DNA of 36,519 bases from an uncultured Alphaproteobacteria bacterium (GTDB taxonomy: Bacteria > Pseudomonadota > Alphaproteobacteria > CAAHEQ01 > UBA3637). Of this stretch, positions 3,349 to 34,874 are shown one piece after another. Below the pieces are notes generated by a model that worked only from the letters and a program-made list of their open reading frames with translations, was not told where the DNA came from and did no database searches. The stretch spans positions 1-36,519 of the forward strand of contig CAJOPC010000051.1 of assembly GCA_905236245.1 (NCBI GenBank), in the 5' to 3' direction. The first letter of the stretch is position 1, and each line of letters opens with the position of its first letter. Made by a program: the position numbers and the translations under genes.

Positions 3349-5388
3349 TTGCCTAAAAATCAATTATTCGTTGAAATCGCAAAAGTAGGGCGATTGATTG
3401 GTATTGCCGGCGTTTTAGGCGTTCTGGTCATTTATTTATGGGCGAGCGCCTTTTTTTCTAGGCCCGTTTCTTTTGCTTTTTTGTGGCATCAATTTACATC
3501 ACGATGGTTGTTGATGGTCATCGGCTTTATGTTTTTGGCCTTTGTCTTGTTTGTGGCCGGACGATTGATTTACTTGATCTCTCACATTACGATGCAGCTG
3601 GCCTTTGATCATAGATGGCATCGTCTTTCGAAACAAAAAGAAGCATTAGAAAAAGAATTAAAGCAGTTTTATGCCGCCTTAAAACAGGTTCGGTTCCCAA
3701 TGGTTATTACTCGGGGGAGAAAGGTTGTTTGGTTGAATGATGAAATGCGCCAAATAGTTCATCAAAAAACAATCGATATGAGCGATATGGAAGAGTTTTT
3801 CCCTCAGATGGATCTATCTCATAAAATATCTGCCATTATTCGTAGTTTAAAAATCAAGCGGGGCTATATAAAACAAGTTTTTTGGAATTTAGATGGACAT
3901 ATGTTGCCGGTATGGATATCGGCCGTTTGTTTAAAACCACATCATCCCGAAAAAGGTGTTTTGTGGAGTTTCGACGATGCTTCATCCGAGTATCAAAATA
4001 TGGCTATGGAAAAATATTATGATGCTGTTTTTAGTTCGTTAAAACTGTTCCACATTATTGAAAGTCCCGAACAAGAACGTAAAAAAATGGATAAAATGTT
4101 AAAAGAGGTTAGTCGGGCCTATAATTTAACGCTTGCAGGTATTTTGTCATTAGAAGGTAATCATTTAGTGACCAGAAGTATTTATTCAAATGGTAAGTTT
4201 TCATCTATTCCCAGCCAGTTTGATTTGCATGATCCGGTGGTCAGAACGTCGGCTGTTGCAAGGGCAATCAAAACTAAACAATGTGTTGGGTATGCGGATG
4301 TAGCGCCATTGCCTTATTATCAGTTTTTACAAAAAACAAATCAAGAAATCCCGCAATCAACATGTGCTTTTCCAATTATCATAAATCATAAATTAGAAGG
4401 CGTGATTACTTTATATGGATCACAGCGTAATTTCTTTTCTCCGCAATTGTTGCGTAAATTAGGACAATTATTTAACGAAATCTTTGAGGCAATCGGTTCG
4501 GCGAGGTGGAGATATGCTAATAAACAGGCTATGGCGACATATGAAAAACAATTAAAAGTCCAGGTGGCTGAGTTGGAAAAAGGAAAGCGTATTTTAAAGC
4601 GACAGGCGCGCGAAATGAATGGCGTGGTAAAGGATTTAATTGTTGCCCGGAATCAAGCGGAAGAAGCCAGCCGTGTGAAAAGTGAATTTTTAGCGAGTGT
4701 AAGTCATGAGTTAAGGACGCCGTTGAACGCTATTTTAGGCTTTTCGGAGGCGATGGAGGAAGAAACATTTGGTCCAATGGCGAACGATCGATATAAAGAA
4801 TATACTCGCTATATTTACACAAGCGGTAAGTATTTGTTATCGCTGATAAATGATGTGTTGGATTTGAGTGCTGTTGAAGCCAAAAAGAAAAAACGTGAAG
4901 AAACAGCGATAAATTTGGCGGCATTAGTTAACGAAAGTTTAGATGTTATCAAAGGCTATCCAGATGGAGATAAAAAGACCTATATTGTTCATGTGCCGGA
5001 TGATATTTTCTTATGGGCGGAAGAACGTTCTATTCGCCAAATTTTATTGAATATTCTTTCTAATGCGGTTAAATTTACAGGTGATAATGGACAAATAGAA
5101 ATAATTGCTCGTCGGAATTCTGCACATGATTTAAGGGTGGTTATTTCAGACAATGGTGTTGGTATTCCAAAAGATAAAATCAAAACTTTATTCCAACCGT
5201 TTGTTCAAGTTGAAAATGTGATGACTCGCGAACACAAAGGGAGTGGTCTGGGATTGGTTTTGGTTAAAAAATTGATGGAGTCTTATCAAGGAACGGTTTC
5301 TTTGTCATCAAAAGAAGGCGTTGGAACAAAAATGGTTTTAATTTTTCCACAAAAAAGATTGGTTAAAGAAGGAGTAAAACATGAATAA
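3349..5388 (+). CDS. Membrane sensor histidine kinase, DivJ/PleC-like
   Basis: A 679-residue sensor kinase. Two membrane segments lie at about residues 14-36 and 50-75. A PAS-like region (near MVITRGRKVVWLNDEM) follows, then a GAF-like region (about 230-390), a coiled coil (about 395-440) and HisKA with H-box FLASVSHELRTPLNAILGFS, phosphoacceptor His about 453. The ATPase has N-box NILSNAVKFT, G1 DNGVGIP and G2 GSGLGLVL. The sequence after the H-box (EEETFGPM...YKEYTRYIYTSGKYLLSLINDVLDLS) resembles the alphaproteobacterial DivJ/PleC subfamily. There is no receiver domain, so the partner regulator is elsewhere. The start is TTG, supported by AAAAGGAGGA eight bases upstream. The last bases overlap the next gene by 8, implying translational coupling with a periplasmic binding protein. 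Confidence 0.9.
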   Translation: MPKNQLFVEIAKVGRLIGIAGVLGVLVIYLWASAFFSRPVSFAFLWHQFTSRWLLMVIGFMFLAFVLFVAGRLIYLISHITMQLAFDHRWHRLSKQKEALEKELKQFYAALKQVRFPMVITRGRKVVWLNDEMRQIVHQKTIDMSDMEEFFPQMDLSHKISAIIRSLKIKRGYIKQVFWNLDGHMLPVWISAVCLKPHHPEKGVLWSFDDASSEYQNMAMEKYYDAVFSSLKLFHIIESPEQERKKMDKMLKEVSRAYNLTLAGILSLEGNHLVTRSIYSNGKFSSIPSQFDLHDPVVRTSAVARAIKTKQCVGYADVAPLPYYQFLQKTNQEIPQSTCAFPIIINHKLEGVITLYGSQRNFFSPQLLRKLGQLFNEIFEAIGSARWRYANKQAMATYEKQLKVQVAELEKGKRILKRQAREMNGVVKDLIVARNQAEEASRVKSEFLASVSHELRTPLNAILGFSEAMEEETFGPMANDRYKEYTRYIYTSGKYLLSLINDVLDLSAVEAKKKKREETAINLAALVNESLDVIKGYPDGDKKTYIVHVPDDIFLWAEERSIRQILLNILSNAVKFTGDNGQIEIIARRNSAHDLRVVISDNGVGIPKDKIKTLFQPFVQVENVMTREHKGSGLGLVLVKKLMESYQGTVSLSSKEGVGTKMVLIFPQKRLVKEGVKHE

Positions 5389-6325
5389 GAAAAATATATT
5401 CGGTGCAGTTATGGTGGCTATCACAGCATTGTCTTTGATTCCATTTATTTCAAATGCACAACCTAAACAACAAGCCAATGGTATCATTATTGGCGGCGAG
5501 GAGGTGGAAGTGCATCAGCCTCGAAAGGTGGCTATTGCCGAATGTGGTTTTAAACGTCCGATACGTGTGGCCTCGTTTGTTTCGAATCCGCCGTTTGGTT
5601 GGGTGGAAACTTATCAAGGAAGCATGGAAATTCAATATGTCAGTCATGGATTTGGAATGGATATATTTGATAAAATTGCCAAAAATTTGGGGATAAGATA
5701 TACATCTACAGGTTATGTATCTTATCAAAAAGCCGTTAATGCTTTAAAAAGAGGAGAATTAGATTTGTTAATCGGGGTGTATACGCCGGGCGGTATTGGT
5801 CGTGGCACACAACCTGTTTACCCCAGTTTTTTCAAAAATTTATTTGCTATTTACTATCCAAATGATCGGTCATTCCCGGCTTATTCTTTTGAAAGTTTAG
5901 AGGGGAAAAAGGGAATTATTCGTCGTGAGGAAAATATTTATCCCTTGTTTTCAAGCCATGTCAGAGATGGGTTGAATATTAGTTTGGTGAATACAGCCAA
6001 AAAAGCTTTTGAAATGTTGATGAACGGTGAGGCAGATTATCTGATTGGAAGTCCTTATTCTGTGGAGGCAGAATTGCGTCGGTATAAGTTGCATGAAGAC
6101 ATTGTGCCTGCGGATTGGATCGTGTTGGAAGCTAATATGTTTTTTGTGTTGACAACAAATACAGATTGCTTCAAGTTGCGGAATCTTTTGAGTAAAGAAA
6201 TAGAACAATATATTTCAGATCCTAAAAATGTAAACAAAGATATCACAGATATCATCAATGCGTGGGGTGAACGCTTCCGTGAAGATGCTCCTTTGATCGA
6301 TACCCAAGGTGATGAAGAAAATTAA
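5381..6325 (+). CDS. Periplasmic solute-binding protein, family 3 (SBP_bac_3)
   Basis: A 314-residue exported protein. The signal peptide runs to about residue 26 (ALSLIPFISNA). The mature part has the family-3 binding-protein fold: VASFVSNPPFGWVE near the start, then GFGMDIFDKIAKNLGIRY and ALKRGELDLLIGVY in lobe one. Lobe two contains KKAFEMLMNGEADYLIGSPY. Such proteins bind amino acids or small anions for ABC uptake or sensing. No permease or ATPase gene is nearby. It overlaps the sensor kinase by 8 bases, so a role in signal detection is plausible but inferred. Its TAA shares bases with the stop of the convergent M23 gene. Confidence 0.85.
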   Translation: MNKKNIFGAVMVAITALSLIPFISNAQPKQQANGIIIGGEEVEVHQPRKVAIAECGFKRPIRVASFVSNPPFGWVETYQGSMEIQYVSHGFGMDIFDKIAKNLGIRYTSTGYVSYQKAVNALKRGELDLLIGVYTPGGIGRGTQPVYPSFFKNLFAIYYPNDRSFPAYSFESLEGKKGIIRREENIYPLFSSHVRDGLNISLVNTAKKAFEMLMNGEADYLIGSPYSVEAELRRYKLHEDIVPADWIVLEANMFFVLTTNTDCFKLRNLLSKEIEQYISDPKNVNKDITDIINAWGERFREDAPLIDTQGDEEN

Positions 6326-22304: not shown

Positions 22305-23357
22305 CTATGTTTGTTCTTCATCCAATAAAATGACACTGCCTTGTACATAAGGAATCATGGTGCGTTGAATAATTTTTCCCGAGGGTAAATATAGGAATAA
22401 TTGATTGACTTCGCTTAGGCGTGCAAAATTTTCTCGTTGCTGACGTTTATAATCTGCAAAGTCAGCTACGCGAGATAAAAGTCCGCTGTCTTGAATAGTG
22501 TCCCAAAAGTCTTCGTAATTTGGTTCTGAATCAATCCAGGTCTTTTTTAATTGCCATAATTTTGCAAACTGAGGAGAACAAGCCAACATTTTCCCGGCGG
22601 CATTGAACAGGCAAACTGCACAAGGCAATTGTGCACACAATCGACGCTGGGCGGTAATGATGTTTTCCAAAATAATTCTTAATTCTTCTTCTGTTTTTGT
22701 TTCTTGGCCATATGTCAGGGTGAAAAATTCATTGGCTGCCTGAAAGGAAAAGCTCAGCCAATTAAGGTCATTTAAGGTGGAAGTTTTTTCTTGATTGACA
22801 GAAGTGTTCGCAAAGAAACTTAATCCTTTGGAATCGCGAATAAATAATGGAAAGGGTAAACTTTCCATCGCTGCAGCCAAGATGTTTTTGTGGCGCTCCA
22901 ATAAGTTGGAAAGTTGTAATTTTCGAGCTAGGTCGGATACGTCAAAAAACATAATAATAAGGGCATGTTCATGGGCGTTATGAACAACTTGTCCCGTTAC
23001 GACAAAGTGAAATGTTGTATCTGAGGTTGTCAAAAGATGAGAAAAAGATTGCCCTGTTTTTTGCAATAACTGATAAGAATTTTGCAGTTGGGTTTGATCT
23101 TCGCCTGCAAATTTTTCCAAAATTTGAGCCCATTGCGCTGTATTTTTTAGGTGAAAAGCGTTGGCTAACAATTGTGAAATAAAGGTATGATGCGCGTCAT
23201 GAAGATCTTGATAAAAGAGTCCCGCCGGCATTTGAGAAAGCATAAGGTGGGAAAATTGTAGCCGTTGATTAAGCTTTCGATGAAAATGGAAATAGACCAT
23301 CCAACTGATGAACAGTCCTAGTAACAACCCGCCAATTCCTGTTAGTATCAAGAACAT
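22305..23357 (-). CDS. Membrane PAS-domain protein without kinase domain
   Basis: A 350-residue protein with one N-terminal membrane helix (FLILTGIGGLLLGLFISWMV) and then PAS-like regions at about 30-145, 160-230 and 240-345. The last region (LPCAVCLFNAAGKMLACSPQ, FAKLWQL, FLYLPSGKIIQR) resembles the PAS region of large alphaproteobacterial sensor kinases. There the next part would be HisKA and ATPase domains, but this protein stops right after VILLDEEQT. It begins 2 bases after the comM stop, so both are probably cotranscribed. It may be a truncated kinase or a sensor acting through another protein. Confidence 0.7.
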   Translation of the reverse strand: MFLILTGIGGLLLGLFISWMVYFHFHRKLNQRLQFSHLMLSQMPAGLFYQDLHDAHHTFISQLLANAFHLKNTAQWAQILEKFAGEDQTQLQNSYQLLQKTGQSFSHLLTTSDTTFHFVVTGQVVHNAHEHALIIMFFDVSDLARKLQLSNLLERHKNILAAAMESLPFPLFIRDSKGLSFFANTSVNQEKTSTLNDLNWLSFSFQAANEFFTLTYGQETKTEEELRIILENIITAQRRLCAQLPCAVCLFNAAGKMLACSPQFAKLWQLKKTWIDSEPNYEDFWDTIQDSGLLSRVADFADYKRQQRENFARLSEVNQLFLYLPSGKIIQRTMIPYVQGSVILLDEEQT

Positions 23358-34184: not shown

Positions 34185-34874
34185 ATGCGGATCTTACTCA
34201 TTGAAGATGATAAAGCAATGAATTTGAATGTGACAACGCTGCTAAAACATGCGGGGATGGTTGTCGAGTCTGCGTTGTTGGCAAAAGATGGCTTGGAATT
34301 ATTAAAAGTATACGAATATGATTTGATTATATTGGATTTAATGTTACCGGATATGACCGGAGCAGATGTATTGAAACAAATTCGGTCATATGGTATTGCA
34401 ACGCCGATATTGGTCTTGTCCGCTATGTTGTTGCCGAATAAAAAGGTTGAATGCTTGTCTGCAGGTGCGGATGATTATTTAACTAAGCCATTTAACGCAG
34501 AGGAATTGGTTGCTCGCGTCAATGCTATTGTGCGCCGCAGTAAGGGCCATGCCGAACCTGTTGTGCGTGTTGGAAAGATGGCAATCAATTTGGATACCAA
34601 AATTGTGACGGTTGATGGCAATGTGTTACCGTTGACAGGAAAAGAATATGCTTTAATTGAGTTGTTGGCTTTGAAAAAAGGATCGACTGTCAGCAAAGAA
34701 CAATTTTTAAATCATTTGTATGGCGGTATGGATGAGCCGGAAGTCAAGATTATTGATGTGTTCTTTTGTAAGATTCGTTCGAAAATTAAAGAATTGTCTG
34801 GTGGCGAAGATTATATTACGACCGTGTGGGGCCGTGGATATATTTTGCAAGATTTAACGGAAAAAACTGGCTAA
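34185..34874 (+). CDS. ctrA: Cell-cycle master response regulator CtrA
   Basis: A 229-residue OmpR-family response regulator. The receiver has the acidic pair at residues 8-9 (IEDD) and phosphoacceptor Asp51 in LIILDLMLPDM. Family-specific strings are GADDYLTKPF, AIVRRSKGHA, LTGKEYALIELL, HLYGGMDEPEVKIIDVFFCK and TVWGRGYIL. CtrA activates or represses cell-cycle genes and blocks replication start in Caulobacter; it is phosphorylated through CckA-ChpT. The C-terminus reads TEKTG, not the Ala-Ala end used for ClpXP breakdown in Caulobacter. AAAAGGAG precedes the ATG. Confidence 0.95.
   Translation: MRILLIEDDKAMNLNVTTLLKHAGMVVESALLAKDGLELLKVYEYDLIILDLMLPDMTGADVLKQIRSYGIATPILVLSAMLLPNKKVECLSAGADDYLTKPFNAEELVARVNAIVRRSKGHAEPVVRVGKMAINLDTKIVTVDGNVLPLTGKEYALIELLALKKGSTVSKEQFLNHLYGGMDEPEVKIIDVFFCKIRSKIKELSGGEDYITTVWGRGYILQDLTEKTG

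Follow-up and report, generated by a model that had tools for sequence, protein, structure and literature searches.

Two kinds of described systems lie closest to the locus reported here. The PdhS/DivJ/PleC kinases of Caulobacter, Agrobacterium, and Brucella are the nearest relatives by kinase type, and the external signals that enter the DivK/CtrA circuit are mostly unknown. By gene arrangement, the nearest are the sensor kinases activated by a solute-binding protein (SBP), of which LuxP-LuxQ, ChvE-VirA, and TorT-TorS are examples. Of the SBP-activated sensor kinases characterised so far, 10 of 11 are encoded beside their SBP, and two Pseudomonas kinases, AgtS and AruS, showed no binding to the SBPs encoded next to them (PMC11113362).

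The locus lies in a 36,519-nucleotide stretch from an uncultured alphaproteobacterium (contig CAJOPC010000051.1, assembly GCA_905236245.1), the whole of which we call the window. The window's genome has a size of 1.12 Mb and is 85% complete, and the contig scan returned a single close relative, an alphaproteobacterial MAG from goat abomasum. On the forward strand, a 679-aa histidine kinase ORF (3349-5388), with a TTG start downstream of a AAAGGAGG-type ribosome site, is followed by an SBP ORF of 314 aa (5381-6325) with an ATG start. The 8-base overlap of kinase stop and SBP start (5381-5388, +) claimed in the preliminary description is exact, and since overlap or close spacing recurs in most relatives, the two genes are likely coupled in translation. 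The pair is flanked by an outer-membrane barrel gene on its upstream side and, downstream, by a gene for an M23 endopeptidase in convergent orientation; as had also been claimed, neither a permease or ATPase gene nor one for a response regulator adjoins the pair in the window annotation. Farther upstream are the cell-cycle regulator gene trcR (1842-2384, +; Pfam PF06242, 4.6e-54) and the nucleoid protein gene gapR (2402-2656, +; Pfam PF10073, 4.1e-30), whereas ctrA, for a 229-aa response regulator (34185-34874, +; 325 bits with the NCBIfam CtrA model, just below its cut-off of 350), is found 28.8 kb downstream of the pair and was absent from the preliminary description. Together, trcR, gapR, and ctrA form a loose neighbourhood of cell-cycle genes. 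Elsewhere in the window, a 350-aa protein (22305-23357, -) has only a weak PAS match, and a kinase domain was not found in it.

The kinase begins with two predicted transmembrane (TM) helices, residues 16-34 (3394-3450, +) and 53-71 (3505-3561, +), all TM calls here and in the relatives being made from hydropathy alone. Between them is a short periplasmic loop of residues 35-52 (3451-3504, +), and its ~18 residues agree with the very short loop described before. This is the most variable region of the kinase, with an entropy of 2.40 versus 1.9 for the TM helices and 0.61 for HisKA. Next come a GAF_2-like domain (residues 248-377; 4090-4479, +), whose match is weak and below the cut-off, a HisKA domain (residues 444-511; 4678-4881, +; 7.5e-20) with the phospho-acceptor His453 at 4705-4707 in ASVSHELRTPLNAILGFSE, and a HATPase_c domain (residues 559-669; 5023-5355, +; 2.2e-27). 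The catalytic residues (H453, E454, P458, N568, N572, D601, G603, G605, G631, and G633) are intact and invariant. With curated models, the kinase scored 174.7 bits for PdhS (cut-off 2000) and 161.8 bits for DivJ (cut-off 1000), matches that cover the core only and are unspecific, as other kinases score equally well. Because these cut-offs far exceed what a core match can reach, missing them is no argument against a PdhS/DivJ/PleC type; and because the matches are core-only and unspecific, the type was assigned from the DHp motif and the genomic context. Here, the phospho-acceptor region HELRTPLNAILGFSEAMEEETFGPMANDRYKEYTRYIYTSGKYLLSLINDVLDLSAVEA presumably resembles that of PleC and DivJ, a comparison that we treat as a lead and not as a test, and we likewise take the HELRTPLNAI-GFSE...FGP...SG..LL.LIND.LD motif of the core to be shared with the PdhS/DivJ/PleC kinases. 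Four histidine kinases were found in the genome, namely the window kinase, CckA, a PhoR-like, and an EnvZ-like kinase, and the window kinase is the sole PdhS-like one among them.

The genome also encodes a DivK orthologue, with Caulobacter DivK (PDB ID: 1m5t) as its best PDB match (1.1e-32), and CckA (422 bits) in addition to CtrA. Across 43 genomes of the window's family (f1), whose members have small genomes, the kinase is missing in eight (G001, G003, G005, G006, G008, G009, G013, and G016), and DivK is missing in all eight, whereas DivK was found in 30 of the 35 kinase-bearing genomes. This co-occurrence has a Fisher p of 8.9e-6, a value that ignores relatedness, and spans no fewer than three distinct lineages; completeness is just ~60% for two of the eight kinase-less genomes, and MAG incompleteness may look like gene loss. 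Five genomes have the kinase without DivK (G017, G022, G025, G038, and G039), and G019, tallied as kinase-bearing, has DivK together with a displaced and interrupted kinase match away from the SBP. Moreover, the distance between divK and the kinase gene is 1.6-2.0 kb in G010, G026, and G032, and in six genomes of genus g2 ctrA is the divergent neighbour of the kinase gene, ~0.5 kb from its aligned part, with a TTAA-N7-TTAA box inside the interval. Upstream of the kinase or SBP at all loci, 7 exact CtrA boxes were counted versus 2.35 expected, which is no general signal, since six of the seven sit in the shared ctrA-kinase intergenic region of these related g2 genomes. Given DivK, CckA, and CtrA in the genome, the joint loss of kinase and DivK, and the nearby divK and ctrA genes, it is well supported that the kinase is a DivK-directed one of the PdhS/DivJ/PleC type, and the DivJ/PleC-like label given to it earlier fits by DHp motif, genomic context, and co-loss alike. 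As a side observation, a g1 subclade (G001, G005, G006, G008, and G009) has lost the kinase, DivK, and the Yej permeases and kept CtrA; G003 is also without kinase and DivK, and CtrA was not found in this 59% complete genome.

The SBP is a secreted, Venus-flytrap (VFT)-like orphan protein of the SBP_bac_3 kind by family profile and alignment, with a putative signal peptide of residues 1-26 (5381-5458, +) read from the sequence, its cut falling at ISNA/QP. By itself it scores 22.9 bits with PF00497, under the gathering score of 26.4, and an AlphaFold2 model from two sequences (window and L031) had a mean pLDDT of 42.5, too low to be of use. The family profile, on the other hand, matches SBP/VFT structures, foremost AncQR (PDB ID: 4zv1; 5e-12), and then BvgS (1e-10) and EvgS (2e-10). 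Thirteen residues are invariant (P71, W74, G90, D128, Y134, P148, N153, G178, E184, D219, E231, F254, and C263) and C55 is nearly so; such conservation, with the cysteine pair C55/C263, indicates that a function is maintained. Absent from conservation are the canonical ligand-pocket arginine (for the carboxylate) and aspartate (for the amine) of family-3 SBPs, at positions that we take to be equivalent from the alignment and the HisJ/GlnH pocket: the family alignment has no conserved arginine between residues 128 and 153, and Ser224 stands where family-3 SBPs have aspartate.

A gene-neighbour survey, suggested in the preliminary description with non-conservation in relatives as the adverse outcome, finds instead that the pair is conserved in f1 and in its sister family f39. 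The SBP was found in 42 of the 43 f1 genomes, almost always as a single copy, and the kinase is just upstream of it in 34 of these 42: directly so in 31 (mostly at -14 to +14 bases), and with one small intervening gene in three more, from g5. Such an arrangement far exceeds chance. One genome, G003, has an SBP by M23/lpxC split into two frames (L034:2580-3523) and a second, intact copy (L035:7386-8297). Both f39 genomes (G080 and G207) have the order recA, kinase, SBP, the placement seen in the f1 genera g5, g8, and g9, and this common recA-linked location means that the arrangement probably predates the divergence of f1 and f39. The gene predictions for G207 include an antisense ORF across the kinase-SBP junction, and in G016 recA is followed by the SBP with the kinase missing.

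The SBP is nevertheless not dedicated to the kinase. It is present in seven of the eight kinase-less f1 genomes, and in the g1 subclade, where this was measured, it is under purifying selection (pN of 0.22-0.40 versus pS of 0.63-0.72, ratios that are rough because synonymous sites are near saturation), with the invariant residues intact. In all ten g2 genomes, the kinase is without a TM segment (maximal 19-residue hydropathy of 1.31) and still stands beside the SBP; it is 590-601 or 282-299 aa long, and where ctrA is divergent, the ctrA-kinase spacing leaves little room for such a segment. Direct periplasmic contact with the SBP is therefore impossible in g2. These g2 loci (L042, L059, and L066-L073) show a kinase turned soluble, and in G035, G038, and G039 it is cut to the catalytic core of 282-299 aa, two of the three also being without DivK. 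At the other extreme, ~148 residues separate the TM helices in the f39 kinase of G080.

Farther afield, in the related, flagellated families f22, f32, f48, f70, and f74, the SBP has no adjoining kinase, and in 11 genomes of these five families its divergent neighbour, at 0.2-0.7 kb, is flaF, some of these loci also having flgK/flgL adjacent; we found no relevant report of a flaF-linked SBP in the literature. The class search, which sampled five f1 genomes, found no FlaF in these or in the two f39 genomes. The two contexts are connected by x140, a small cytosolic protein whose gene immediately precedes that of the SBP in f70 and f74 and, in genus g5 of f1, separates the kinase and SBP genes. 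The homology of these copies (about 1e-12) speaks for one and the same SBP gene next to flaF and next to the kinase. This orthology was judged from profile scores, single copies, and x140; in the SBP phylogeny, built to look for a single clade, the deep forks are weak and the branches long. Beyond the g5 copies, x140 occurs in the class sample in f70, f74, and f126 genomes only. The x140 family (L074:6706-7131, L133:5912-6400, L045:2969-3484, L054:6861-7256, L061:8074-8460, and L176:4076-4537) measures ~130-160 aa, is cytosolic, and has no significant Pfam match; in three lineages its gene immediately precedes that of the SBP, and the G167 copy adjoins a gene resembling a glycosyltransferase/FkbM-type methyltransferase fusion.

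On balance, and with somewhat better than even confidence, we read the locus as a sole PdhS/DivJ/PleC-type kinase that acts on DivK, next to an importer-free orphan SBP that works mainly with another partner. Most likely, the kinase would both phosphorylate and dephosphorylate DivK, which would act via CckA on CtrA, and its own input would come through the TM pair and the GAF-like domain. The SBP would be an importer-independent periplasmic protein of the Venus-flytrap type, presumably ligand-binding, that belongs to a CtrA/flagellar gene neighbourhood; in the apparently non-flagellated f1 and f39 it would be co-transcribed with the kinase without being dedicated to it, and would act mainly via a putative periplasmic or envelope partner other than the kinase's short loop. 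As the SBP outlives the kinase and elsewhere adjoins a flagellar gene, a role purely as the protein that the kinase touches is unlikely for it. Against this reading are the tight overlap kept in most lineages, which is unusual for functionally unrelated proteins, and the genomes where kinase and DivK part, that is, the five with a kinase and no DivK and G019 with DivK and no intact kinase. The preliminary description had proposed the SBP as a possible ligand-loaded co-sensor that connects a nutrient cue to the kinase; in such a view it would dock on the short loop or the TM pair, set the kinase/phosphatase balance, and so carry the cue to DivK. What stands of this is the conserved adjacency of an ancient and overlapping gene pair, as is usual for SBP-activated kinases, along with the large periplasmic region of the G080 kinase and the sensor-kinase VFT domains of BvgS and EvgS as next-best structures of the SBP profile; what does not stand is contact as a general mechanism, which is disfavoured by TM-less g2 kinases still paired with the SBP, by an SBP conserved under purifying selection where the kinase is lost, by flaF-linked SBPs that have no kinase, by the poorly conserved loop, and by the precedent of AgtS and AruS. 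We thus regard the co-sensor as rather unlikely, including its softer version, in which the ancestor had a contact of the G080 kind that then dwindled in f1 and disappeared from g2. Direct co-sensing may have taken place in kinases with a more extensive periplasmic part, such as that of ~148 residues, but cannot be general.

Equally to be weighed is whether the SBP binds a small ligand at all. It could be an envelope protein that has lost such binding, either structural or an enzyme built on the SBP fold, with the operon reflecting mere co-expression of cell-cycle-regulated genes. The unconserved alpha-amino-acid residues would suit this, as would the C55/C263 pair, perhaps a disulfide, and the persistence of the SBP in reduced genomes irrespective of whether flagella, DivK, or the kinase are present; W74, Y134, N153, E184, and E231, however, are invariant and may line the pocket, as if something were still bound, and we consider this explanation, too, rather unlikely. 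More doubtful still is that the SBP began as a periplasmic input or adaptor of a CtrA-controlled polar/flagellar programme, beside flaF, and joined the DivK-kinase operon after the loss of flagella, x140 being carried along in some lineages. An ordinary importer SBP served by a permease elsewhere, for instance one feeding the Yej peptide importer, would accord with the sub-threshold SBP_bac_3 match and with the presence of Yej in the genome, but Yej is a peptide/microcin C importer and not one for polar amino acids. In fact, YejB and YejE, beside YejF, are the genome's only permeases of this ABC type, which makes an import role unlikely, and no polar-amino-acid permease or ATPase for the SBP was found in the 85% complete genome, the permease count of which equals that of relatives that are 98-100% complete. 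In the f1 genomes searched, BPD_transp_1 permeases either form a single tandem pair or are absent (one genome has an extra short fragment), and G001, G005, G008, and G009, where they are absent, keep the SBP. We accordingly reject the importer role, to which we assign only a very slight chance, and the earlier suggestion of a role other than transport holds in that the genome has no importer for the SBP.

Returning to our preferred reading of a DivK kinase beside an importer-free SBP, the locus offers, in such a secreted protein, a concrete candidate input to the DivK/CtrA circuit, its gene being linked to that of the DivK kinase or to flaF, depending on the family. It also illustrates that an old kinase-SBP gene pair need not be a sensor pair, as the kinase can turn soluble or vanish and the SBP stays. 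In comparison with the PdhS/DivJ/PleC systems, the likeness is in DivK, CckA, and CtrA within the genome and in the co-loss with DivK, whereas the window's genome differs by its single such kinase, the GAF-like input, the very short or missing periplasmic part, and the operon with an orphan SBP. With regard to family-3 importer SBPs for polar amino acids, the fold predicted by profile (AncQR) would be shared, though the window SBP falls below the Pfam cut-off, does not conserve the ligand arginine and aspartate, and has no matching permease. GrrP (TIGR04262) is likewise an orphan, importer-less SBP-like protein; the window SBP matches it weakly (18.9 bits versus a 190-bit cut-off), and the surroundings of the SBP gene showed no GRRM context. 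In BvgS and EvgS, whose VFT domains rank with the closest solved structures by profile, these domains are fused to their kinases, unlike the separate, secreted window SBP. Finally, as in the SBP-activated kinase pairs, the kinase and SBP genes are adjacent, on one strand, and apparently co-transcribed, yet here the f1 kinase lacks a sizeable periplasmic sensor domain, the g2 kinase is soluble, and the SBP survives the loss of the kinase.
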